Assembly: GCA_028285645.1 (NCBI GenBank)
Contig: JANQOV010000042.1
Location: 1-37,889 of the forward strand
DNA: 37,889 bases
Reading direction: 5' to 3'
DNA from: Hyphococcus sp.
Lineage (GTDB): Bacteria; Pseudomonadota; Alphaproteobacteria; Caulobacterales; Parvularculaceae
In this document: positions 14,181 to 36,424 of the stretch, piece by piece
Numbering within the stretch: the stretch's first letter is position 1
Layout: every line of letters begins with the position of its first letter
Notes under the pieces: model-generated
What the model was told of the DNA's origin: nothing
Seen by the model: only the letters and a program-made list of their open reading frames with translations
Databases searched by the model: none
Made by a program: the position numbers and the translations under genes

Positions 14181-14325
14181 ATCGGCCCCCTCTGACCAGA
14201 ACGCAAAAATGTCATGGCAGACGATACCCCGATCAAGGGGCCGCTGCAAACCGGCCGCCCTTCAATGGTTAACGCCTCCCGCCCTTGCGCGGCGCGGGCC
14301 CCAAGGTATAGTCCGGCGCTTCAAC

Positions 14326-14415
14326 GGACAGGTGGCCGAGTGGTTGAAGGCGCACGCCTGGAACGCGTGTAGGCGGGCAACCGTCTCGAGGGTTCGAATC
14401 CCTCTCTGTCCGCCA
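14326..14415 (+). tRNA. tRNA-Ser (GGA)
   Basis: The 90-nt cloverleaf is complete. The acceptor stem GGACAGG pairs with the segment ending CTGTCC, with discriminator G and an encoded CCA (14413-14415). The D arm is GCCGAGTGG-type. The anticodon stem CACGC/GCGTG carries loop CTGGAAC with anticodon GGA at 14360-14362. A long variable arm of class II is present, and the T arm is GAGGG-TTCGAAT-CCCTC. Two tandem repeats carrying copies of its 3' end follow immediately. Confidence 0.97.
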
Positions 14416-14638
14416 CTTCAGAACCTCGGAAAAACTCGAGCGCTCGCCACAGCGGGATGGTCTCCCCCTCGATTCTTATGAAAGCGCGCCATTGGCGCGC
14501 GGGGTTCGAATCCCTCTCTGTCCGCCACTTCAGACTCTCGGAAAACTCGAGCGCTTGCCACAACGGGATGGTCGCACCCTCGATTCTTATGAAAGCGCGC
14601 CATTGGCGCGCGGGGTTCGAATCCCTCTCTGTCCGCCA
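14416..14638 (+). repeat. two tandem ~111-nt repeats, each ending in the 3' end of tRNA-Ser
   Basis: Unit 1 is 14416-14527 (112 nt) and unit 2 is 14528-14638 (111 nt). They differ by one indel and a few substitutions in their first half and are identical over about the last 60 nt. Each unit ends in an exact copy of the last 26 nt of the tRNA gene (14390-14415), at 14502-14527 and 14613-14638, starting inside the T stem and including CCA. Just before each copy is a perfect hairpin, GCGCGCC-ATT-GGCGCGC (14484-14500 and 14595-14611). The upstream halves of the tRNA are not repeated, so these are not functional tRNAs. After unit 2, 14639-14822 shows no gene. Confidence 0.93.
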
Positions 14639-14822
14639 GCTTCACCTACTTGAGCAGGCTACCGGTAAGTCACGCGCTCAACGGTTCATGGAGAAACTCG
14701 CGCTGTATGTTCGTTTGGCGAAGGCTCTAACGCCGGAGCTTTAACAAAGCGAAGGCGGACGGATTGTCTCAATGCTAAAGCGTTTCCTTGTTTGAGGTCG
14801 CTTTCAAAGAGTGTGTGTCAGT

Positions 14823-16628
14823 TTACTTTCGCCGTCGATCAGGCCGCCGTTCCACATGGAACACAGTGTCCTGCAGCTCGTCGCCGATATTTGTGTTGTT
14901 TCGAATGACGGCTGCGAGCGTCACATCTTCCACGAGGCGCCGTTCGTCGCGCGTTAAGTCTCGCTCATACCAAAAGCGATCGCCGTCTCTTAGGGCTTCA
15001 AACTGGCGGACAAGGATTTCCCGAAACAGCGGGCCGAGTTGCGAACCCTCATTAACAAGCGGGTCTTCGGCCAAACCGCCTATCCAAAGATCAATATCAT
15101 CGACCGAGCCGTATGTATCAAACAATGCCTGCTGCAGGTCGGTATCTGAAGTGATTTCGTCAAAATCCGATACGCGCGGCATGCCCAATGCTTCGCGCGT
15201 GTCGTTATACGACCCAACGCCATGGTCGCGGCCGCGTTGAATATTCAACGATGCGAGGTCGAAACCGCCTTGTCCGGGCTGGCCGAACAAAAAATTTCTG
15301 AGGGCATTGACGATTTTTACATCTAGTTTTTGATGGGGTTGGCTTGCGAGCCCGCGCAATATCGGATCAAGGTCGTGCTCACTTTGCAAATGGATTGGCG
15401 CAGTGAAAAATGCATCGCGTAATGCAACATGGCCAGCGTCAATTTCTTGTCCGGTTGCGTCTAACCGGAAAATTTCGTTACTCAGCAGACTATGTCCAAG
15501 CCTGTAGGCCGCGACTGAAAATTCATTGAATATGCTTGGATTGATTTCAGGATCGTAACGGCGATATCGGGATATTGCGTTACGTCCAAGAAGCGCTGGT
15601 AGAAATTCATTATAGGTGATGATTTGAATTTCAGCCGCAACGAGACGGCGCGCCGTTTGAAATATCTCTTCAGCATCGGCGTTCGAGTGTTGGCGTTGCA
15701 GGCGTCGCGCTAAACGATTGTGTTCGCGTACGAAGAGCGTGTGCATGACGGCAAGGCCAAGCTGCTCGTTAACCCGCACATCACCGGCCAGGAACAAAGT
15801 TGTCGGGTCCTGGACAAATCCATTCGCGTTCGCCAGCGCGTCCACATTATACGGCAACAGATTTCCGGGGCTTGTCTTTAAGAATGGACTGTCGGGCCCA
15901 GCGCGCAAAGCAGCGGCGCGTTCGTCATCCGATCCGTAGATCATGGACGCGTCTATCCAACTTGTAATCTCATTTTCTTGTTCGCGAGGGTTTTTAAGAT
16001 CGGTTCCCGTTTCTGGGTCATAAAGCGCCCGATTAAATGGAATAACGACCGACCCGGACCCTGTTGGATCAAAGAAAGGATCGCCGGCCGGAACCGCGAT
16101 ATTTGCTTCTTCATCCGTGCTGCCGTCCGTTAAATCGATATCGTGATCAAGAAATTGCCCCCACTGCCAAATGAAATCGCTTGTGCCGAAATCGTTCGGG
16201 ATTGTTTCATCTTCTGTTTGGTCGACTATATTATTGCTAATGACTCTTGCGCTTGGGCGCAGCGGTCCGGCAAGTGTTGAGATGCCGTCAGCATAATCGG
16301 ACGGACCAAAGCGCTGAAGGTGAATGAACGAGGCGCCCCAAGAGGGGTGGGCCAGATTGTTATTTGTTCCATCATAGGTGCGTATTTCGCGCGCGCCGAT
16401 GCGAGGTCGATCAAACCTTCCGCTGTCGCGCTCGCTTTTGATCCGACGGCGTTTTTCCGCTCGATCATCATCGATTCCTTGAGGTGACCTTGAAGATTCA
16501 TTTTGAGAGGCGTTGTTCGATCGCTGGGCTGCAGCGCTTGACGAAAGCAGGACGTTGATCGATGCGCTTCCGAGCAGTGTGCCGGCTGTCAATGCCAAGG
16601 CGAGGGGTGAAAAGAAAAAACGCGGCAT
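14823..16628 (-). CDS. secreted animal-type haem peroxidase
   Basis: A 601-aa protein with an N-terminal signal sequence (about 1-35) and an animal haem peroxidase domain. All key residues seen in myeloperoxidase are present: distal Q158 and H162 with D161 and D163 in QFLDHD, distal Arg285 and Glu288 in AGDVRVNE, REHNRLA, proximal His379 in YRLGHSLL, and NIQRGRDHG. It should bind haem and a calcium ion and oxidise halides or organic substrates outside the cytoplasm with peroxide. The product of that oxidation is not predictable. GGAGAAG precedes the ATG. Its base composition looks more AT-rich than its neighbours (by eye, not counted), and with the tRNA repeats beside it, this suggests acquisition. 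Confidence 0.88.
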   Translation of the reverse strand: MPRFFFSPLALALTAGTLLGSASINVLLSSSAAAQRSNNASQNESSRSPQGIDDDRAEKRRRIKSERDSGRFDRPRIGAREIRTYDGTNNNLAHPSWGASFIHLQRFGPSDYADGISTLAGPLRPSARVISNNIVDQTEDETIPNDFGTSDFIWQWGQFLDHDIDLTDGSTDEEANIAVPAGDPFFDPTGSGSVVIPFNRALYDPETGTDLKNPREQENEITSWIDASMIYGSDDERAAALRAGPDSPFLKTSPGNLLPYNVDALANANGFVQDPTTLFLAGDVRVNEQLGLAVMHTLFVREHNRLARRLQRQHSNADAEEIFQTARRLVAAEIQIITYNEFLPALLGRNAISRYRRYDPEINPSIFNEFSVAAYRLGHSLLSNEIFRLDATGQEIDAGHVALRDAFFTAPIHLQSEHDLDPILRGLASQPHQKLDVKIVNALRNFLFGQPGQGGFDLASLNIQRGRDHGVGSYNDTREALGMPRVSDFDEITSDTDLQQALFDTYGSVDDIDLWIGGLAEDPLVNEGSQLGPLFREILVRQFEALRDGDRFWYERDLTRDERRLVEDVTLAAVIRNNTNIGDELQDTVFHVERRPDRRRK

Positions 16629-28946: not shown

Positions 28947-29879
28947 CTAAAGGCGTTTTGATGCGTCAGCAAAGTAAAGCGCCGTCATCACATCGAGATG
29001 GGCGCCGCCGCCGTTTTTAAACACCGTAACGTCTTCGTCGTTGCGCTGAAAATTCTCGCCATCGCATAGGCCATATAAGTCGCTTTCAATATCGTCGCGC
29101 GTGATGACGTCCTCACGGATCGGAATCATGATTTCACCGATATGCTCGATGGTGGTGTCAACGCAATCAACGAAGAGCCGCGCCTTCTTCATGAGCGCAT
29201 CGTCAGCTTCGCGCATCGCCGGACTGTAAGCGCCGATAAGATCTATATGCGCGCCAGGCCTGACGGCGCCGCCGGGGATAATGGGCTCTGTTGATGGAGT
29301 GGCGCTCGATACGATATCGGCTTCGAAGACGGCTGCTGACAAATCTTCGGCGGGTTCGGCGCCGTCATGCATGGCGGCGAGGGCTTTTGCTTTGTCATGC
29401 GATCGTCCCCAAACCGACACGGTTTCGATGGTGGGGAAGTAAGCCTTGTAGCCCTCAACGAGCGCATTTGCGATGAAGCCAGTTCCGATAACAACAAGCG
29501 TCTTCGGATGCGGGCGCGCCAGGATTGACGCGCCGGCGAGCGAGTCAGCGACCGTTTTCCAGCGGGTCAAAACAGCGCCGTCGATAATGGCTTTAAGAGC
29601 CCCGGTGTTTGGCGCAAACAGAAAGAAAGCCCCCTGAACAGCGGGCAGGGGCGGCGTCTGCGACGGATTTTCGAGATTAATCGTCGCGGCTTTGACGCCG
29701 GCGCCGAGCCCTTCGATTGTCGCCGAGCGGGTTAGCAAGTCGCCTTTTTCCGTTTGCAATAACGTGTCGCCCAGCTTTGCGCGCGGGCGTTTATGACCTT
29801 GCTTGATCGCTTCTGCCGCGTCTTTCCAGCTCAAGGCCTTTTCTATTTCCGAACCGATGAAGGGCGGTGAATTGGACAT
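28947..29879 (-). CDS. lhpI: ornithine-cyclodeaminase-family protein, probably pyrroline-2-carboxylate reductase (LhpI)
   Basis: A 310-aa member of the ornithine cyclodeaminase/mu-crystallin family. The NAD(P)-binding Rossmann motif is IGTGFIANAL near residue 130, and LIGAYSPAMREAD and DLYGLCDG follow. In hydroxyproline clusters the family reduces delta1-pyrroline-2-carboxylate to L-proline, the product of the 3-hydroxyproline dehydratases next to it (29883 and 25884). Ornithine cyclodeaminase is the less likely alternative. The start lies three bases after the stop of the racemase-family gene, so the two are one operon. GGGAG sits within the upstream gene's last codons. Confidence 0.78.
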   Translation of the reverse strand: MSNSPPFIGSEIEKALSWKDAAEAIKQGHKRPRAKLGDTLLQTEKGDLLTRSATIEGLGAGVKAATINLENPSQTPPLPAVQGAFFLFAPNTGALKAIIDGAVLTRWKTVADSLAGASILARPHPKTLVVIGTGFIANALVEGYKAYFPTIETVSVWGRSHDKAKALAAMHDGAEPAEDLSAAVFEADIVSSATPSTEPIIPGGAVRPGAHIDLIGAYSPAMREADDALMKKARLFVDCVDTTIEHIGEIMIPIREDVITRDDIESDLYGLCDGENFQRNDEDVTVFKNGGGAHLDVMTALYFADASKRL

Positions 29880-29882
29880 CTC

Positions 29883-30911
29883 TTACGCTCCCGGCCATGT
29901 GTCGGACAGACGATATCCATTGGGCCACGGATCATCGGGGTCGAGGGAGAGTTGGGTCTTCCCTGTTATCCAGGCGCGTCCGGTGATCGAGGGAATGATC
30001 GCGGACGCGCCGGCAACGGTCGTTTCATCTTCGATGCGTCCCAGAAATTCCGAATCGATAATCGACCGCGCCCGAAGCATATCGCCTTTCACCAGTTCGC
30101 CGCGCGCATGAAGCACGGCAAGACGCGCCGACACGCCAGTGCCGGTCGGCGATCTGTCGATTTTCCCGGGCCGGATAGCGACCGCGTGTTTCGTTACAGC
30201 AGCGTCATCGCCTTTTTCCAGCGGCGTTGCAAAAAGGCAAAAGGAAATATGGTTCCATTCGGGAAGTTCCGGGTGAGAAAAACCGATCTGCTCATTTGCA
30301 GCTTGGGTGATGCGCATGCCGAGATCTGCGAGCTTTCTCGCTTCGCTTGGAGCAAGGTCAAGGCCAAGTTTGCCTGCATCGACAATGACGAAACTGTCGC
30401 CGCCATAGGCGGTGTCTACAAGTATCTTGCCTATTCCTTTCACTTCAATAGCGGCGTCAAGTTTTGCTGCAAATGACGGGCGATTTTGGATGGCAACGCT
30501 TTTGACTTTTCCATTCTCGCACCATGCGGTGACCTTGATGAGGCCGCCGGGCGCTTCGAGCACCATCGTCGTTTGAGGTTCGCGCATGTCTATCATGCCG
30601 GTCTCTAACAGGACGGTTGAAACACAAATAGCGTTTGACCCCGACATGGGCGGCGTATCAGCCGGTTCCATGATGATGAAGGCTGCATCCGCCTTCGGGC
30701 TTTTGGTCGGCACGAGCAAGTTGACATGGCGGAAGACGCCGCCGCGGGGCTCATTTAATACAAAGTTTCTGAGGCGCTCATCGTTTGCGATCCAGCGCGC
30801 CTGTTCCCAAACGGTATCGCCGGGGGGCGGTGCGACGCCGCTGACAATAACATCGCCGACTTCGCCTTCCGCATGGCAACCAACGATTTGGATGACTTCG
30901 TTTGATCGCAT
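29883..30911 (-). CDS. proline-racemase-family protein with Ser/Thr active-site pair, probably trans-3-hydroxy-L-proline dehydratase
   Basis: A 342-aa proline racemase fold starting [17 protein letters not shown]. The start at 30911 avoids overlap with the PepSY gene; a start at 30965 would add 18 residues. The two catalytic Cys positions of racemases/epimerases read Ser (PPMSGSN) and Thr (DRSPTGTG). A Cys-to-Thr change at the second site is typical of trans-3-hydroxy-L-proline dehydratase, which makes pyrroline-2-carboxylate by losing water. The adjacent reductase gene (28947, three bases away) would use that product. Ser at the first site leaves the exact activity open. Confidence 0.75.
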
Positions 30912-30922
30912 GAGAGCGGCTT

Positions 30923-31462
30923 TTACAATTGCGCTTTGCTGGCGCGCTTTTTTCTTCGCCGCCATCTAGCGTAATGGGGCAGGAAGAAAAGATAAATGCC
31001 AGTCATCCACAAAAAGACCAATATGACGCCGGCAGGTAAAAAGAGATACCGCTTCGCCCCGTCGCCAAAGAACGATCCATCATGGATGGATTCAATAATG
31101 TCGGACCGCCGGAAGGATTTTTGCACTACATCGCCGCTATTGATATCGATTTGCACTTCCCAATTTGTATTCGATACAAACTTTACAACATATTTGTCCG
31201 GTTTGATGTCGACCCGCGAAAGATCCGTCCAACTATTTATATTTGCCTCCGGCGCTGCTGCTTTTGCAATTTCATAAAGCTCGGCGATGGTGATTTGCGG
31301 CGGCAGCTCGGATGCCGTTCCCCGCTGTGTCGGCGGCTGGATCCAGGCAAAGTCTTTTTTCAGCATCAAGAAAATGCCGGCGATAAATATCACGCCGGCC
31401 TGGAGCATAATCAGCAGCGATCCCCAATGATGGATTTTCCGGAACAACACTTTTGTATTCAT
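30923..31462 (-). CDS. PepSY-domain transmembrane protein
   Basis: A 179-aa membrane protein with an N-terminal helix (about 8-33, [20 protein letters not shown]), a periplasmic PepSY region (about 55-120, including [30 protein letters not shown]), a second helix (about 140-162) and a basic tail RRRKKR. HHWG plus the PepSY repeat is typical of PepSY-associated TM proteins, many of which relate to iron or redox functions. Its stop lies eleven bases upstream of the racemase-family start, so it is in the hydroxyproline operon, where its role is not obvious. Confidence 0.8.
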
Positions 31463-31494
31463 CGTCGGGACGCCTGTTGTTGGGGGTGGTTCGC

Positions 31495-31507
31495 CATAAG
31501 ACTTATG
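31495..31507. promoter_or_regulatory. palindrome CATAAG-A-CTTATG upstream of the PepSY gene
   Basis: A perfect 13-base inverted repeat in the 82-nt gap between the FAD dehydrogenase stop and the PepSY start. It may be an operator for an internal promoter of the minus-strand operon. No copy was seen elsewhere in the cluster, so its regulator is unknown. Confidence 0.35.
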
Positions 31508-31544
31508 CTGGAGAGTATGAACTTACGGAGCGGGTTTTCGCAAT

Positions 31545-32798
31545 CTAAAACCGGTCGATGCTGAAAGGCGCTGGATCGACCGGCGGTGTTTTGCCTTTGA
31601 TGATGTCGCCCATCATCGCTGCGGTCACGCCTGCAAGGGTAAGACCGAGATGTTGATGTCCAAATGCGAAGAAGGCGTTGTTGCATTTTCGTGTGGCGCC
31701 AATCACAGGAAGATAGTCGGGTAACGTCGGGCGATGGCCGAGCCAGGAGGTGGCGCCGGCTAGATCAAGGTGCGGCGTCAGCGCTTGCATGTGTGACTTC
31801 AGCTTTTCAATGTTTTTTTGGCGTGCTGGCTTTTCAAGGCCCGCCAGTTCAACAAAGCCGGTGATGCGCAAGCCTTCGTCAAGAGGCGTCATGATGACAT
31901 TGCGCTCGAAGGAAGAAACCGGTTTCGTCATTTTGGGCTGATAAGCAGGGGCAGTAACATGATAGCCACGTTCGGCTTCGAGAGGAGCGTTGCAACCGAG
32001 CTGTTTCGCCAGTCGATGAGACCATGCGCCGGCGGCGATAATCACTTTGTCAGCCTTTACAGAGCCTGATGCGCCTTCAAACGCAAAACCTGCGGGCGTC
32101 AATGTTTTGATCTGATCAATTTCGTTCTTTATCACGCATCCGCCAGCCTGCTCGAAGGCTTCAAGCAGTTTCAGACAAACGGAATAGGGATTAAGTACAT
32201 GCCCCGTCTCAGGATAGAATACCGCGCCGGCAATATCGCCCGTTAGGTCAGGCGCCAGTCCGGCGACATCCGCCGGCTCCATCCATTCTGAAAGAACGCC
32301 GTGTTTTTTTTCTTCTTGGCGTAATCGCTCAATGCGCCTTAGGGAACGCGCGTCTTCAACCAGCATGAGATGGCCGTCCATGCGCAGGAGGGACTCTGCA
32401 TTGGCGGATTGTAGCAGATTTCGCGTTTCCTCGCCGGCGATGGATTGAAGCGAGGACAACGCCGCAACGCCGCGCTTATAATTGTGCGGCAACGCGCTTT
32501 TCGCAAATCGCAACAGCCAGGGCGCTGCTTTCAGCCCATAGGCGGGGTCGATGCGCAGGGGCGAATTGGAACCGCATACCAAACCGGGCGCCGACAGAAG
32601 CGTCTGCGGCGAGGCGAGGGGAAAGACGAGTTCGGTTGCAATATGTGCTGCGTTGCCAAACGAGCAGCCACGGCCGGGCGCGTCACGGTCGATCAAGACA
32701 ACATCTGCGCCGTCATGCGCCAGTCTTAGCGCGCAGGCAAGGCCGATCACCCCGGCGCCGACAACAGCAATCTCAGCGTCTTCACTCGGTGCGTTCAA
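31545..32798 (-). CDS. FAD-dependent D-amino-acid dehydrogenase, probably D-hydroxyproline dehydrogenase
   Basis: A 417-aa DadA/DAO-type flavoprotein with N-terminal FAD motif VVGAGVIGLACALRLA (about 12-27), RGCSFGNAAHIATE, and C-terminal GHRPTLPDYLPVIG and GHQHLGLTLAGVTAAMM. In hydroxyproline catabolism such an enzyme oxidises cis-4-hydroxy-D-proline, made by the epimerase at 33964, to pyrroline-4-hydroxy-2-carboxylate and passes electrons to the respiratory chain. The start codon is a TTG at 32798, supported by GAGAGG five bases upstream; no nearby ATG is better. It is divergent from the deaminase gene at 33020. Confidence 0.8.
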   Translation of the reverse strand: MNAPSEDAEIAVVGAGVIGLACALRLAHDGADVVLIDRDAPGRGCSFGNAAHIATELVFPLASPQTLLSAPGLVCGSNSPLRIDPAYGLKAAPWLLRFAKSALPHNYKRGVAALSSLQSIAGEETRNLLQSANAESLLRMDGHLMLVEDARSLRRIERLRQEEKKHGVLSEWMEPADVAGLAPDLTGDIAGAVFYPETGHVLNPYSVCLKLLEAFEQAGGCVIKNEIDQIKTLTPAGFAFEGASGSVKADKVIIAAGAWSHRLAKQLGCNAPLEAERGYHVTAPAYQPKMTKPVSSFERNVIMTPLDEGLRITGFVELAGLEKPARQKNIEKLKSHMQALTPHLDLAGATSWLGHRPTLPDYLPVIGATRKCNNAFFAFGHQHLGLTLAGVTAAMMGDIIKGKTPPVDPAPFSIDRF

Positions 32799-32935
32799 GG
32801 GGGCCTCTCACTTGCGGAATGGGTTGCACGGCCTCTTTACCGTTTTGCACGAAGCGCCGCGATTCGGGGCGTTTTGGCGACCTTAACGCCCCTCAAAACT
32901 ATGGCGCGCTGGCGGTCTCTTAGAAAGCTTGATAT

Positions 32936-32947
32936 ATAATATATTAT
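32936..32947. promoter_or_regulatory. AT-rich palindrome in the divergent hydroxyproline promoter
   Basis: ATAATATATTAT at 32936-32947 is a perfect 12-base palindrome within the 221-nt region between two oppositely transcribed pathway genes (dehydrogenase and deaminase). GATA and TATC arms flank a wider imperfect version at 32931-32948. GntR/FCD regulators bind short AT-rich palindromes, and such a regulator is encoded at 27054. The match is inference. Confidence 0.38.
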
Positions 32948-33019
32948 CCGTTAGAGGGGCGGTTTGAGGGTGAGATGTTGGCCGTTCGCCAAAGCGGGAA
33001 AGCCAAGGATATTCGAACA

Positions 33020-33943
33020 ATGAGCAATAGCGATACTTCAAAGTGGCGCGGCGTCTTTCCCGCGGTCACCACGCAATTCAAAGAAGATATGTCGGTCGAC
33101 ATTGAAGCGACCCAAAAGGTGATCGACGGGCTGATCAATGACGGCGTCCACGGTCTCATTCTGATGGGCACGGTCGGCGAAAACAACTCTTTGGAGCCCG
33201 ATGAAAAGCGCCAGATATTGTCAGCCGCGAAAGAAGCGATCGCAGGCCGTGTGCCGGCGCTCACGGGTGTCTCTGAATTCACGACCGAACGCGCGCAGCG
33301 ATATGCGCAAGACGCTGAAAAAATCGGCATTGACGGGCTGATGGTGCTGCCGGCCATGGTCTATGTGCCGAATGCTGACGAGTTGGATGCGCATTTCCGG
33401 CAAGTGGCGGCGTCTTGTTCGCTGCCGGTCATGATCTACAACAACCCTGCGTCCTACCGGATCAACATTGAGCTTGAATCGATGAAGCGGTTGGCTGACG
33501 TTAAAAATATCGTCGCTATCAAGGAGTCCGCTGAGGATACGAGACGCTTCACGGATCTGTTCAACGCCGTCGGCGACCGCTTTATCATTTTCGCCGGCTT
33601 GGACGATATGGCGTACGAAGGTTTGACCCTTGGCGCCGCTGGCTGGATTTCCGGACTGACCAATGCGTTTCCGAAAGAATCGGTCGCCATTTATGACCTC
33701 GTGCAGCGTGGGGAACTAAAAAAAGCGGTGGAGATTTACCGCTGGTTCATGCCGCTTTTACATCTCGATTCTCAACCCAATCTCGTTCAGTGCATCAAAC
33801 TGGCGGAACAAGTCATGGGCCGCGGCTCAGAGCGGGTGCGCATGCCGCGCATGCCGCTTGCCGGCGACGAACGAGCGGAGGTGATCGCGATGGTGGAAAA
33901 AGCGCGCGATACGAGGCCCGATTTTGACGCCATGCTGGGCTGA
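33020..33943 (+). CDS. lhpC: DHDPS/NAL-family lyase, probably pyrroline-4-hydroxy-2-carboxylate deaminase (LhpC)
   Basis: A 307-aa TIM-barrel aldolase-type enzyme from the ATG at 33020 (AAGGA ten bases upstream). The Schiff-base lysine is K168 (IVAIKES) and the catalytic tyrosine Y140 (MIYNNP); GTVGENNSL (51-59) is the phosphate or carboxylate-binding loop. In the hydroxyproline pathway this family deaminates pyrroline-4-hydroxy-2-carboxylate to alpha-ketoglutarate semialdehyde. The flanking epimerase and semialdehyde dehydrogenase genes, on the same strand, supply the preceding and next steps. It is divergent from the FAD dehydrogenase. Confidence 0.85.
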   Translation: MSNSDTSKWRGVFPAVTTQFKEDMSVDIEATQKVIDGLINDGVHGLILMGTVGENNSLEPDEKRQILSAAKEAIAGRVPALTGVSEFTTERAQRYAQDAEKIGIDGLMVLPAMVYVPNADELDAHFRQVAASCSLPVMIYNNPASYRINIELESMKRLADVKNIVAIKESAEDTRRFTDLFNAVGDRFIIFAGLDDMAYEGLTLGAAGWISGLTNAFPKESVAIYDLVQRGELKKAVEIYRWFMPLLHLDSQPNLVQCIKLAEQVMGRGSERVRMPRMPLAGDERAEVIAMVEKARDTRPDFDAMLG

Positions 33944-33963
33944 TTAACACGGACAGGAATTTC

Positions 33964-34971
33964 ATGCCCAATCAACCGCACGCCTTTTTTTGTGTTGACG
34001 GACACACTTGCGGCAATCCGGTTCGATTGGTTTCAAAAGGCGCGCCTGAACTCAACGGCGCCAATATGAGTGAAAAACGGCAGGACTTTCTGACGCGGTT
34101 CGACTGGATGCGCACATCGCTGATGTTTGAACCGCGCGGACACGATATGATGTCTGGCGCCTTTCTCTATCCGCCTGTGACAGAGGGCGCTGACGCCTCA
34201 ATCCTATTCATTGAAACTAGCGGTTGCTTGCCCATGTGCGGCCATGGCGCCATCGGCGCGCTCACCATGGCGATCGAAGGCGAGCTGATTACGCCCTCCA
34301 GCGATAGGGAAGTGATCATTGATGTGCCCGCTGGAACAATCAAAGCAGAGTACCTCCGCAGGGGTAAATATGTTGAAGAAGTGCGGCTCTATAATGTGCC
34401 GAGTTATCTTGCGGCCAGCGACATTGTTATTGACTGTCCCAGTCTTGGCTCATTGAATGTTGATGTCTCTTATGGCGGAAATTTTTACGCGATCATTGAT
34501 CCGCAGCCCAATTTCTCGGGCCTCGAGGATATGAGCGCTGATGAGATTGTACGGCTTAGTCCCATCGTACGTGATCTTGTGCGAGAAAAGTTCAAGCCCG
34601 TGCATCCGGAAGACGATACGATCAAAGGCGTCAGTCATGTGATGTGGACAGGCGCGCCGCAAACGAAACGCGCCCATGCGCGTAATGCGGTCTTTTATGG
34701 GGACAAGGCGATTGATCGCTCTCCTTGCGGCACCGGCACCAGCGCGCGCATGGCGCAATGGGCGGCGAGAGGAAGACTAAAACCCGGCGATGAGTTCATC
34801 CATGAAAGTATCATCGGCAGCATGTTTGATGGTCGCGTCGAAGAAGCAGCACAAGTTGGCGAGTTTGACGCCATCCGTCCAAGCTTTGCCGGTTGGGCGC
34901 GCATGACCGGATTGAATACAATTTTTGTTGACGAGCGGGATCCGTTTTGGCGCGGGTTCACGGTGAAATAG
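33964..34971 (+). CDS. 4-hydroxyproline 2-epimerase
   Basis: A 335-aa proline-racemase-family enzyme with both catalytic cysteines intact: C92 in MCGHG and C255 in SPCGTG. These are the acid/base pair that inverts C-alpha of trans-4-hydroxy-L-proline to cis-4-hydroxy-D-proline. The start (MPNQPHAFFCVDGHTCGNP) follows ACAGGA by about six bases and the lhpC stop by 20 nt. It works upstream of the FAD dehydrogenase at 31545. Its Cys/Cys pair contrasts with the Ser/Thr homologue at 29883. Proline racemase is a less likely alternative given the neighbours. Confidence 0.88.
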   Translation: MPNQPHAFFCVDGHTCGNPVRLVSKGAPELNGANMSEKRQDFLTRFDWMRTSLMFEPRGHDMMSGAFLYPPVTEGADASILFIETSGCLPMCGHGAIGALTMAIEGELITPSSDREVIIDVPAGTIKAEYLRRGKYVEEVRLYNVPSYLAASDIVIDCPSLGSLNVDVSYGGNFYAIIDPQPNFSGLEDMSADEIVRLSPIVRDLVREKFKPVHPEDDTIKGVSHVMWTGAPQTKRAHARNAVFYGDKAIDRSPCGTGTSARMAQWAARGRLKPGDEFIHESIIGSMFDGRVEEAAQVGEFDAIRPSFAGWARMTGLNTIFVDERDPFWRGFTVK

Positions 34972-34984
34972 AAAAGGGCCAAGA

Positions 34985-36424
34985 ATGTCGGTTTTCAAAA
35001 ACTATATTGGCGGCGAATGGCGCGAGGGCGACAGCGTAAACCAAAACATCAACCCGTCTGACACCAATGACGTCATCGGCGAATACGCTGTCGCTTCAGC
35101 GAAAGACGCAGCCGCCGCCATTGACGCTGCTGCAACCACGGCGCCGCAATGGGCTGCGTCAACATTGCAACAACGCTTTGATGCGCTCGACATGATCGCC
35201 GCCGAAATCTTCGCCCGTAAGGCTGAACTCGGGGAACTTTTGGCGCGTGAAGAAGGCAAAACCCTTCCCGAAGGGATTGGCGAAGTCGCCCGCGCCGGTC
35301 AGATATTTAAATTTTTCGCAGGTGAGGCGTTGCGCAGCCAGGGCGATGTTCTGGGCTCGGTTCGTCCGGGCGTCAAAGTCGAAGTAACGCGCGAACCGAT
35401 CGGCGTTGTCGGCGCTATCACGCCCTGGAATTTTCCCATCGCGATCCCCGCTTGGAAAATTGCACCGGCGCTCGCCTTTGGCAACACAGTGGTGTTCAAG
35501 CCGGCAGGGCTTGTGCCCGGTTCGGCATGGGCGTTGAGCGACATTATTGCGCGCGCGGGATTGCCTGACGGCGCATTCAACATGGTCATGGGTTCGGGAA
35601 GTGTTGTCGGCGAGGCAATGCTTGGTTCTGACAAAGTCAACGCGGTGACGTTTACGGGGTCAGTAGAAACCGGCGCCCATGTTCTTGCGAAAACGTCAGG
35701 TCACGGCGTTAAGGCGCAGCTTGAGATGGGCGGCAAGAACCCGCTTGTGGTGCTCGACGACGCTGATCTAAGTATCGCTGTTGATTGCGCTCTCCAGGGC
35801 GCGTTTTTCTCAACCGGCCAGCGGTGCACGGCTTCTTCGCGCATTATCGTCACTGAAATTATCGCCGACCGGTTTATCGACGCGCTACGTGAAGCAACGG
35901 CTGAGTTGCGTGTTGGCGACGCCCGCGCGAAAGATACGCAAATCGGTCCGCTCGCAGATGCAAGCCAGCTGGCGAAGACCGAAGACTATGTCGGGATTGG
36001 CAAAAAAGAGGGCGCAGACCTTATCGCCGGCGGCGAGCGGATCGATGCAGCAACGCCGGGTTACTATTACGCGCCGTCGCTGTTTGATAATGCGAGCGCA
36101 GAAATGCGCATTGTCAGAGAGGAAATTTTCGGTCCCGTCGCCGCGATCCAGCGCGTCAAGGACTATGACGAAGCGCTTGCCGCCGCCAATGACACAGAAT
36201 TCGGACTTTCATCGGGTATATGTACAACGTCTTTGAAATATGCAGAGCACTTTAAGGCGAATGCAAAAGCCGGAATGGCGATGGTCAACCTGCCAACCGC
36301 CGGCGTTGACTACCATGTGCCGTTTGGCGGACGGAAAGCATCAAGTTTTGGCCCTCGCGAGCAAGGCGCTTATGCTGCGGAATTCTACACCATCGTCAAG
36401 ACTGCCTATCAGCGCGCAGGATAG
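34985..36424 (+). CDS. alpha-ketoglutarate semialdehyde (2,5-dioxovalerate) dehydrogenase
   Basis: A 479-aa aldehyde dehydrogenase that would oxidise alpha-ketoglutarate semialdehyde to 2-oxoglutarate, the last step of hydroxyproline breakdown. Catalytic Cys281 (GQRCTASS), Glu247 (LEMGGKN), Asn149 (PWNFP) and the NAD-binding Lys172 (FKPAG) are in place. The start follows AAGGG by six bases and the epimerase stop by 13 nt, so the three plus-strand genes form an operon. Related enzymes act on succinate or sugar semialdehydes, but the context favours this substrate. Confidence 0.88.
   Translation: MSVFKNYIGGEWREGDSVNQNINPSDTNDVIGEYAVASAKDAAAAIDAAATTAPQWAASTLQQRFDALDMIAAEIFARKAELGELLAREEGKTLPEGIGEVARAGQIFKFFAGEALRSQGDVLGSVRPGVKVEVTREPIGVVGAITPWNFPIAIPAWKIAPALAFGNTVVFKPAGLVPGSAWALSDIIARAGLPDGAFNMVMGSGSVVGEAMLGSDKVNAVTFTGSVETGAHVLAKTSGHGVKAQLEMGGKNPLVVLDDADLSIAVDCALQGAFFSTGQRCTASSRIIVTEIIADRFIDALREATAELRVGDARAKDTQIGPLADASQLAKTEDYVGIGKKEGADLIAGGERIDAATPGYYYAPSLFDNASAEMRIVREEIFGPVAAIQRVKDYDEALAAANDTEFGLSSGICTTSLKYAEHFKANAKAGMAMVNLPTAGVDYHVPFGGRKASSFGPREQGAYAAEFYTIVKTAYQRAG

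Follow-up and report, generated by a model that had tools for sequence, protein, structure and literature searches.

Two tandem repeats, each carrying the 3' end of a tRNA, lie directly behind the tRNA-Ser(GGA) gene of Hyphococcus sp., and they raise the question of what such units are, how they arise and what keeps them beside a tRNA. The locus belongs to a stretch of 37,889 nucleotides, which was analysed as a whole and is called the window below. An earlier note on this DNA had described the tRNA, its two repeats, their periods of 112 and 111 nt and a perfect GCGCGCC-ATT-GGCGCGC hairpin before each copy, and we find all of these features as described (Table 1), with one extra G between hairpin and copy. 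With both strands of the whole window considered, the 26-nt tRNA end recurs exactly at these two places only, which is far beyond chance. The homogenised second half of the units, set against a diverged first half, is also confirmed: the seven differences between units 1 and 2 (six substitutions and one gap) all fall within the first 50 of 112 nt, while the last 62 nt are identical (P = 0.0028 if differences were placed randomly). A feature that had been missed is the heptamer CCCTCGA, which in both units is complementary to the V/T-stem junction of their own tRNA and which we call the anti-T-stem. Simple scans of positions 14200-14850 returned no terminator-like or sigma-70-like site, and no mirror-image 5' unit of the kind described below was seen in the window.

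Table 1. Features of the tRNA-Ser(GGA) locus and its two units (window coordinates).
Feature	Position	Strand	Basis or remark
tRNA-Ser(GGA) gene, CCA encoded	14326..14415	+	ARAGORN; Rfam tRNA model 14326-14412, 56.5 bits
tRNA 3' end, T-arm to CCA, 26 nt, copied twice downstream	14390..14415	+	repeat search
Spacer L, unit 1; akin to this genome's tRNA-Gly(CCC) spacer	14416..14465	+	sequence comparison
Anti-T-stem, unit 1: CCCTCGA, complement of TCGAGGG in the tRNA	14466..14472	+	
Hairpin, unit 1, 7 bp, loop ATT	14484..14500	+	
First copy of the tRNA 3' end	14502..14527	+	
Spacer L, unit 2; diverged from the unit 1 spacer	14528..14576	+	
Anti-T-stem, unit 2: CCCTCGA	14577..14583	+	
Hairpin, unit 2; same sequence as unit 1 hairpin	14595..14611	+	
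Copy 2 of the tRNA 3' end, followed by unrelated sequence	14613..14638	+	

The closest known kind is the tRNA-linked repeat (TLR) of Escherichia coli, and we place the window repeats with it. The parallel with rtT at tyrT had already been drawn in the earlier note; it is right and extends further, as rtT is one of 22 E. coli TLRs at ten loci (PMC8144298, as excerpted) and as relatives of the window hold equivalent units behind many tRNAs. According to the same excerpts, which cite Rudd 1999 as the source, TLRs share 18-19 bp with the 3' end of the upstream gene and number one to five per locus; they were first described in 1978, an early tyrT phenotype was withdrawn, and in 2021 they were still without known function. 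Where TLRs stand directly behind a tRNA (or rRNA) gene and repeat its 3' end, the window units do likewise, with 26/26 nt twice (16-25/25 nt, mostly 24-25/25, in other units) and two repeats at the locus. The layout is thus alike, whereas the sequence is unrelated: RtT (RF00391) has no match in the window at the gathering score, nor in 14250-14700 up to E = 5, and none in six further loci searched in Parvularculaceae or the class (L059, L060, L062, L106, L104, and L178), while an E. coli locus (L175) has four. The copy is also longer in alphaproteobacterial units (25-26 nt, against 18-19 in E. coli TLRs), and only in the former does the hairpin abut the copy.

Equivalent units are found both in the same genome and in its relatives, where they stand behind other tRNAs as well. 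In the same genome, another unit follows tRNA-Gly(CCC); its spacer is related, and its copy matches the 3' end of that Gly tRNA (24/25 nt). The exact hairpin occurs at three places only in this genome, namely the Ser-GGA and Gly units. A search of named genomes with the exact pattern gave six stretches: four contigs of three Parvularculaceae MAGs, one of Marinicaulis flavus, and one of a MAG labelled Candidatus Marinimicrobia. In M. flavus SY-3-19, units follow Ser-TGA and Cys, and Ser-GGA has a 5' copy. The unit in the MAG labelled Marinimicrobia (L061) reflects either a mislabelled bin or a wider spread. With model R2, 17 of the 62 family genomes have a match of at least 40 bits; 16 of them were inspected at the sequence level, and the matches of the remaining one (G067) sit at contig ends. 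A locus of 37.8 bits (L319 of G084) is a unit as well. Outside the family, units were confirmed in two genomes (G192 and G251) among the 299 of the order searched with model R1, some of whose weak matches were inspected, and four further order loci proved to be plain tRNA-Ser(GCT). In the class search, 94 of 385 genomes pass E = 1e-5, mostly with weak matches, and weak model matches are often plain tRNAs. Among the 21 class loci inspected (L275-L295), eight are units, one (L286) has a partial copy with neither hairpin nor fitting segment, and 12 have no copy; the class units stand behind Ala, Gly-GCC, Tyr (in tandem), Ser-TGA, Ser-CGA, His, Val, and Pro-TGG. Over all inspected alphaproteobacterial loci, tRNAs of ten amino acids carry units (Ser, Gly, Trp, Pro, Cys, Arg, Val, Ala, Tyr, and His), most loci other than the window hold one or two, and every inspected unit adjoins a tRNA.

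These units share one order: the tRNA, spacer L, an anti-T-stem of about 10 nt, an AT-rich stretch of 10-15 nt, the hairpin, and the copy from T-arm or T-stem to CCA. Spacer L mostly measures 44-56 nt (14-36 in some units and 73 in one). Directly before the copy, all 24 units tested have a perfect hairpin (stem 5-9 bp, loop 3-6 nt), a count that is partly by construction, as most units were found with a model that rewards hairpins. Between distant genomes the hairpin sequence differs, and the spacer is not conserved either. Compensatory changes were evaluated over 19 units: pairs changed on both sides number 6 against 2.4 in shuffles, and cells 11 against 3.5 (0 of 500 shuffles in both cases), while the number of further pair types was reached by 31 of 500 shuffles. 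Predicted folding gives no strong support. The two window units folded alone have z scores of -1.12 and -0.70 (29 and 46 of 200 shuffles as good) and three other units range from -1.23 to -2.28; tRNA and unit 1 folded together reach -2.62, but the predicted minimum-energy fold breaks the cloverleaf. Three other ideas on the nature of the unit were discarded. A relic of the tRNA-Ser variable arm is ruled out by the same layout behind Gly, Trp, Pro, and Val; a tRNA-like fold in which 5' and 3' copies nest was dropped because many loci hold just one of the two; and the Rfam near-matches (Plastid-psbl-rps4, sX4, TB9Cs1H3, and mascRNA) stay below the gathering score.

The segment before the AT-rich stretch tracks the T-stem of the tRNA next to it. 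At 24 unit loci, exact complementarity to the V/T region of the adjoining tRNA runs to 8.46 nt on average (longest stretch per locus); permuting the tRNAs lowers this to 6.45 (sd 0.25), and none of 20,000 permutations reached the observed mean. When 27 loci were scored by their best spacer site against 10 nt of the tRNA (5 nt of T-stem strand and 5 nt of T-loop), the stem part matched at 5/5 in 21 loci and at 4/5 in the other six, in two of which (the window and L036) the script had picked another, wrong site. Units found later (L275-L280, L282, L284, L316, L318, and L319) match their own T-stem at 5/5 in 11 cases out of 11 and span the T-stems GTCGG, GAGGG, GTAGG, GTGGG, GCGGG, GGCGG, GGGGG, GCAGG, and GGGAG; model R2 scores what the segments have in common rather than how well each one suits its tRNA, and for L316, L318, and L319 the tRNA type was already represented among the units in that model. 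Five homologous units at Ser genes of two species (genomes G003 and G008) share spacer L (seven of ten pairs beat all 1000 shuffles; the weakest pair is at 0.175), yet between them their segments suit three different T-stems, with a mismatch in one unit. Where copies are worst preserved (five loci, 92/125 nt), the segment keeps 46/50, so it seems better kept than the copy; this comparison is suggestive only, being based on few loci and on the best site taken, with one locus (L007) scored low through a 1-nt gap. Two simpler accounts of the segment fail. It is not a usual trailer feature, since complements of at least 8 nt are not clearly more frequent behind tRNAs lacking a detected copy (7/159) than in controls (42/1577), and five of these seven copy-less trailers are decayed or weaker units (L209, L071, L073, L074, and L079). 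Nor is it a direct copy of the 3' strand of the T-stem, as L040 and L043 combine a CCCTC strand with a CCCCC segment.

Several loci bear traces of exchange. The spacer is found again after the copy, scoring at least 20, in eight loci out of 27; in the cross-locus control the 99th percentile is 12 and the highest score 36. Within a genome, spacers behind different tRNAs may be alike: in G003, the Ser-CGA and Ser-GGA spacers score 39, its other unit pairs 8-13, and 774 other pairs at most 27; likeness is also seen in G008 (35) and G000 (26), and is weak in G022 (17, under the 99th percentile of 19.5). The Ser-CGA locus of G251 (L270) provides another example. Here the T-stem GTGGG faces CCCTC, leaving a T-T mismatch in the tRNA, while both copies downstream read CCCAC, the Ser-TGA version, and continue with the acceptor strand of Ser-CGA itself; as read from these hybrid copies, the locus points to gene conversion.

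From these sequence comparisons, the reading that we favour, to which we would give not quite an even chance, is a non-coding module in the tRNA 3' trailer: recombination would renew its copy of the tRNA end, and pairing with the tRNA would keep the anti-T-stem. Direct observations are the anatomy, the fact that many different tRNAs are followed by it, and the agreement of both copied end and anti-T-stem with the adjoining tRNA. The units would be transcribed together with the tRNA, with no terminator-like site between them. As the tRNA end recombines with its copies, units would be gained or lost and the copies kept tRNA-like, and gene conversion may move units between tRNA-Ser genes. The anti-T-stem would be kept since it pairs in the RNA with a T-arm, either that of the copy (a local hairpin) or that of the tRNA itself (at long range), and the trailer may thus adopt two folds, acting on maturation or quality control of that tRNA. 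We lean to selected pairing because the segment differs fittingly within related units. Counted in favour of the trailer module are the permutation test, the later units, the five Ser units, the poorest-copy loci, the hairpin compensation, the lack of a terminator-like site, the spacer recurrence, and the hybrid copy of G251. Against it count the low occupancy given below, the weak folding with its broken cloverleaf, the number of further pair types reached by 31 of 500 shuffles, the imperfect segments (six loci of 27), the weak segment in most E. coli repeats, and the mirror units, which fit a 3'-trailer role poorly.

These mirror units lie upstream of relatives' tRNA-Ser genes as copies of the tRNA 5' part (18-27 nt). 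Their order, judged by eye, is in most cases 5' copy, hairpin, AT-rich stretch, complementary segment, and then the real tRNA, which on the other strand equals the order of the 3' units. The set comprises 12 loci, all Ser, largely because Ser-GGA loci had been chosen; complements to the tRNA measure at least 9 nt in seven of them, 7 nt in two and 4-5 nt in three, counts that carry no permutation control. One locus (L114) has just 12 nt between 5' copy and tRNA and no such hairpin. At three loci (L023, L021, and L007), a promoter-like CTATAGT or CTATATT precedes the 5' copy, as one would expect had the functional tRNA been pushed downstream. A need of 5' units for TTCGA on the other strand of the D-arm, which among 41 and 37 tRNAs is found in Ser only, is a weak idea, as Ser is favoured at 3' ends too (6/9).

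Occupancy was measured over 120 tRNAs of three genomes (41 in G003, 42 in G008, and 37 of the 41 found in G022). A 3' copy with an abutting hairpin is present at nine: six Ser, Trp, Cys, and Arg-CCT. Two more 3' matches, at Arg-CCT and weakly at Glu of G003, have no hairpin. At the 5' side, Ser-CGA (G003) and Ser-GGA (G008) have a match with an abutting hairpin, and Ser-GGA and Arg-CCG of G022 a copy without one. In controls using the flanks of other tRNAs at a cut of 13, 3' ends gave 14/615 matches in G003 (neighbouring tRNAs unmasked) and 0/555 in G022, and 5' ends 3/615 and 4/555, respectively. Such patchy occupancy indicates that the unit is dispensable and not needed for tRNA function. 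Strain-level empty sites were sought at Pro-CGG in one genus and at Trp in another, where the flanks are too diverged to date insertion. Two hairpin-less arrangements were seen besides: a longer copy of the tRNA 5' half upstream of Arg-CCG in G022 (L149), and tandem partial tRNA copies from near the anticodon, spaced by about 130 nt, at Arg-CCT in G003 (L133), which look like repeats of another, att-like kind.

Together, mirror units and patchy occupancy favour a DNA-level origin by target copying, and hence the main rival to the trailer module: a selfish or mutational DNA element, useless to the cell, whose hairpin arrives at a tRNA end in an event that copies this end together with an inverted piece of T-stem. 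This might happen by template switching, the T-arm being nearly palindromic, or through a hairpin element that has a guide-like segment. Units with the same order on the other strand suit a DNA event better than RNA processing; spacers common to different tRNAs of one genome point the same way, as do copies that mostly match at 24-25/25 nt and are thus young or renewed. However, hairpins of unrelated sequence and one geometry throughout the class need a mechanism that makes or keeps hairpins, and the segment looks better kept than the copy where copies are poorest, weak as that test is with one of its five loci scored low through a gap. We regard such an element as possible but doubtful. The short palindromic mobile repeats REP and RPE also combine a hairpin with a guide-like strand beside the junction; they differ in that the units inspected here all adjoin tRNAs. 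Trailer module and DNA element may also be combined, with origin by copying and persistence by pairing.

That the trailer yields a discrete regulatory small RNA or sponge, in the manner of E. coli 3'ETS-leuZ or the 5S-linked TLRs, is improbable. In E. coli, rttR is annotated as an ncRNA, and Hfq and CsrA are bound in vitro by the 5S-linked TLRs (PMC8144298), but in the same paper the 19 TLRs of tRNA operons have low CsrA-type scores, and neither spacers nor hairpins keep their sequence among distant genomes. 3'ETS-leuZ, by annotation, is likewise a non-coding RNA in a tRNA trailer, but no copy of the tRNA end lies downstream of leuZ.

Scars of integration, that is att repeats left by a phage- or island-type recombinase after loss of its element, correspond to the remnants of repeated integration that the earlier note had offered as an alternative. 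Att repeats at tRNA genes directly repeat the 3' end of the tRNA, from around the T-loop to CCA, which is also the part copied here, and hairpin-less partial tRNA copies of such look do occur elsewhere (L133). The integrase and matching distal site that should accompany an island boundary were both sought: there is no integrase in the 30 of 120 ORFs scanned, and the genome itself (86.6% complete) holds no distal 26-nt copy, just other tRNA-Ser ends and the tRNA-Gly unit. Phage and plasmid matches cover only 13-26% of the query, at tRNA-Ser ends. The window units further differ from such scars in their 85-nt spacing and in having a hairpin and an anti-T-stem, and a single anatomy recurs behind tRNAs of ten amino acids, where units at different tRNAs hold that tRNA's own end, the hairpin and mostly a tRNA-specific anti-T-stem. 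We thus consider this origin very improbable. Finally, a plain tandem duplication peculiar to this genome, which the two copies in the window would suggest, is refuted as the whole story by the same anatomy in the 17 family genomes and behind other tRNAs of the class; it has next to no chance beyond explaining the second unit.

How far the features extend to E. coli was assessed in 15 stretches of strain K-12, in which 11 of 53 ARAGORN predictions have a 3' copy. Three of these 11 repeats carry an anti-T-stem of 9-13 nt: lysQ and lysV, with a 13-nt complement (GATTCGAACCTGC) in repeats that are alike and hence not independent, and proK, with 9 nt. At tyrV, 10 nt are complementary to the acceptor side, and the other seven repeats have complements of 5-8 nt; on the score used above, the segment is weak (at most 7/10) in 8 of the 11. 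A perfect stem of at least 6 bp lies within 80 nt before the copy in nine, and the trailer recurs after the copy at tyrV, proK, lysQ, and lysV. The 15 stretches hold no 5' mirror unit, the lone 5' match being a prediction on the strand opposite argV. The lysQ and lysV repeats (L228 and L229) lie some 1.7 Mb from each other; they hardly differ, even in the trailer before and after them, which suggests transfer between tRNA-Lys loci.

A more general proposal, which we think unlikely on present data, is that TLRs from Alphaproteobacteria to E. coli are cis-acting antisense modules, in which a T-stem-matched segment and a two-state trailer would control or check the maturation of one tRNA. If true, this would be a layer of tRNA control that was not found in the open-access literature searched. 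In a DNA counterpart of this proposal, the segment may be the guide of a tiny mobile hairpin cassette that copies its target anew at each new tRNA. The open-access literature likewise yielded, where searched, no prior description of the anti-T-stem, of 5' mirror units or of TLRs in Alphaproteobacteria. New here are the anti-T-stem that tracks each tRNA's own T-stem, the mirror-image units upstream of relatives' tRNA-Ser genes, and the hairpins of unrelated sequence with compensatory changes. An anatomy common to two classes, a tRNA-tracking segment and 5' mirror units together provide a sequence signature with which the origin and role of TLRs can be tested.

As for the neighbourhood, the tRNA and its repeats are flanked upstream by a TerC-family gene and downstream by a gene for an animal-type haem peroxidase, which adjoins the repeats (14823-16628 on the minus strand; PF03098, 523.8 bits). 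Further along the window, positions 28947-36424 hold a cluster of two proline-racemase-family genes with DHDPS-family, aldehyde dehydrogenase, DAO oxidoreductase, and ornithine-cyclodeaminase-family genes, a set that suggests hydroxyproline breakdown.
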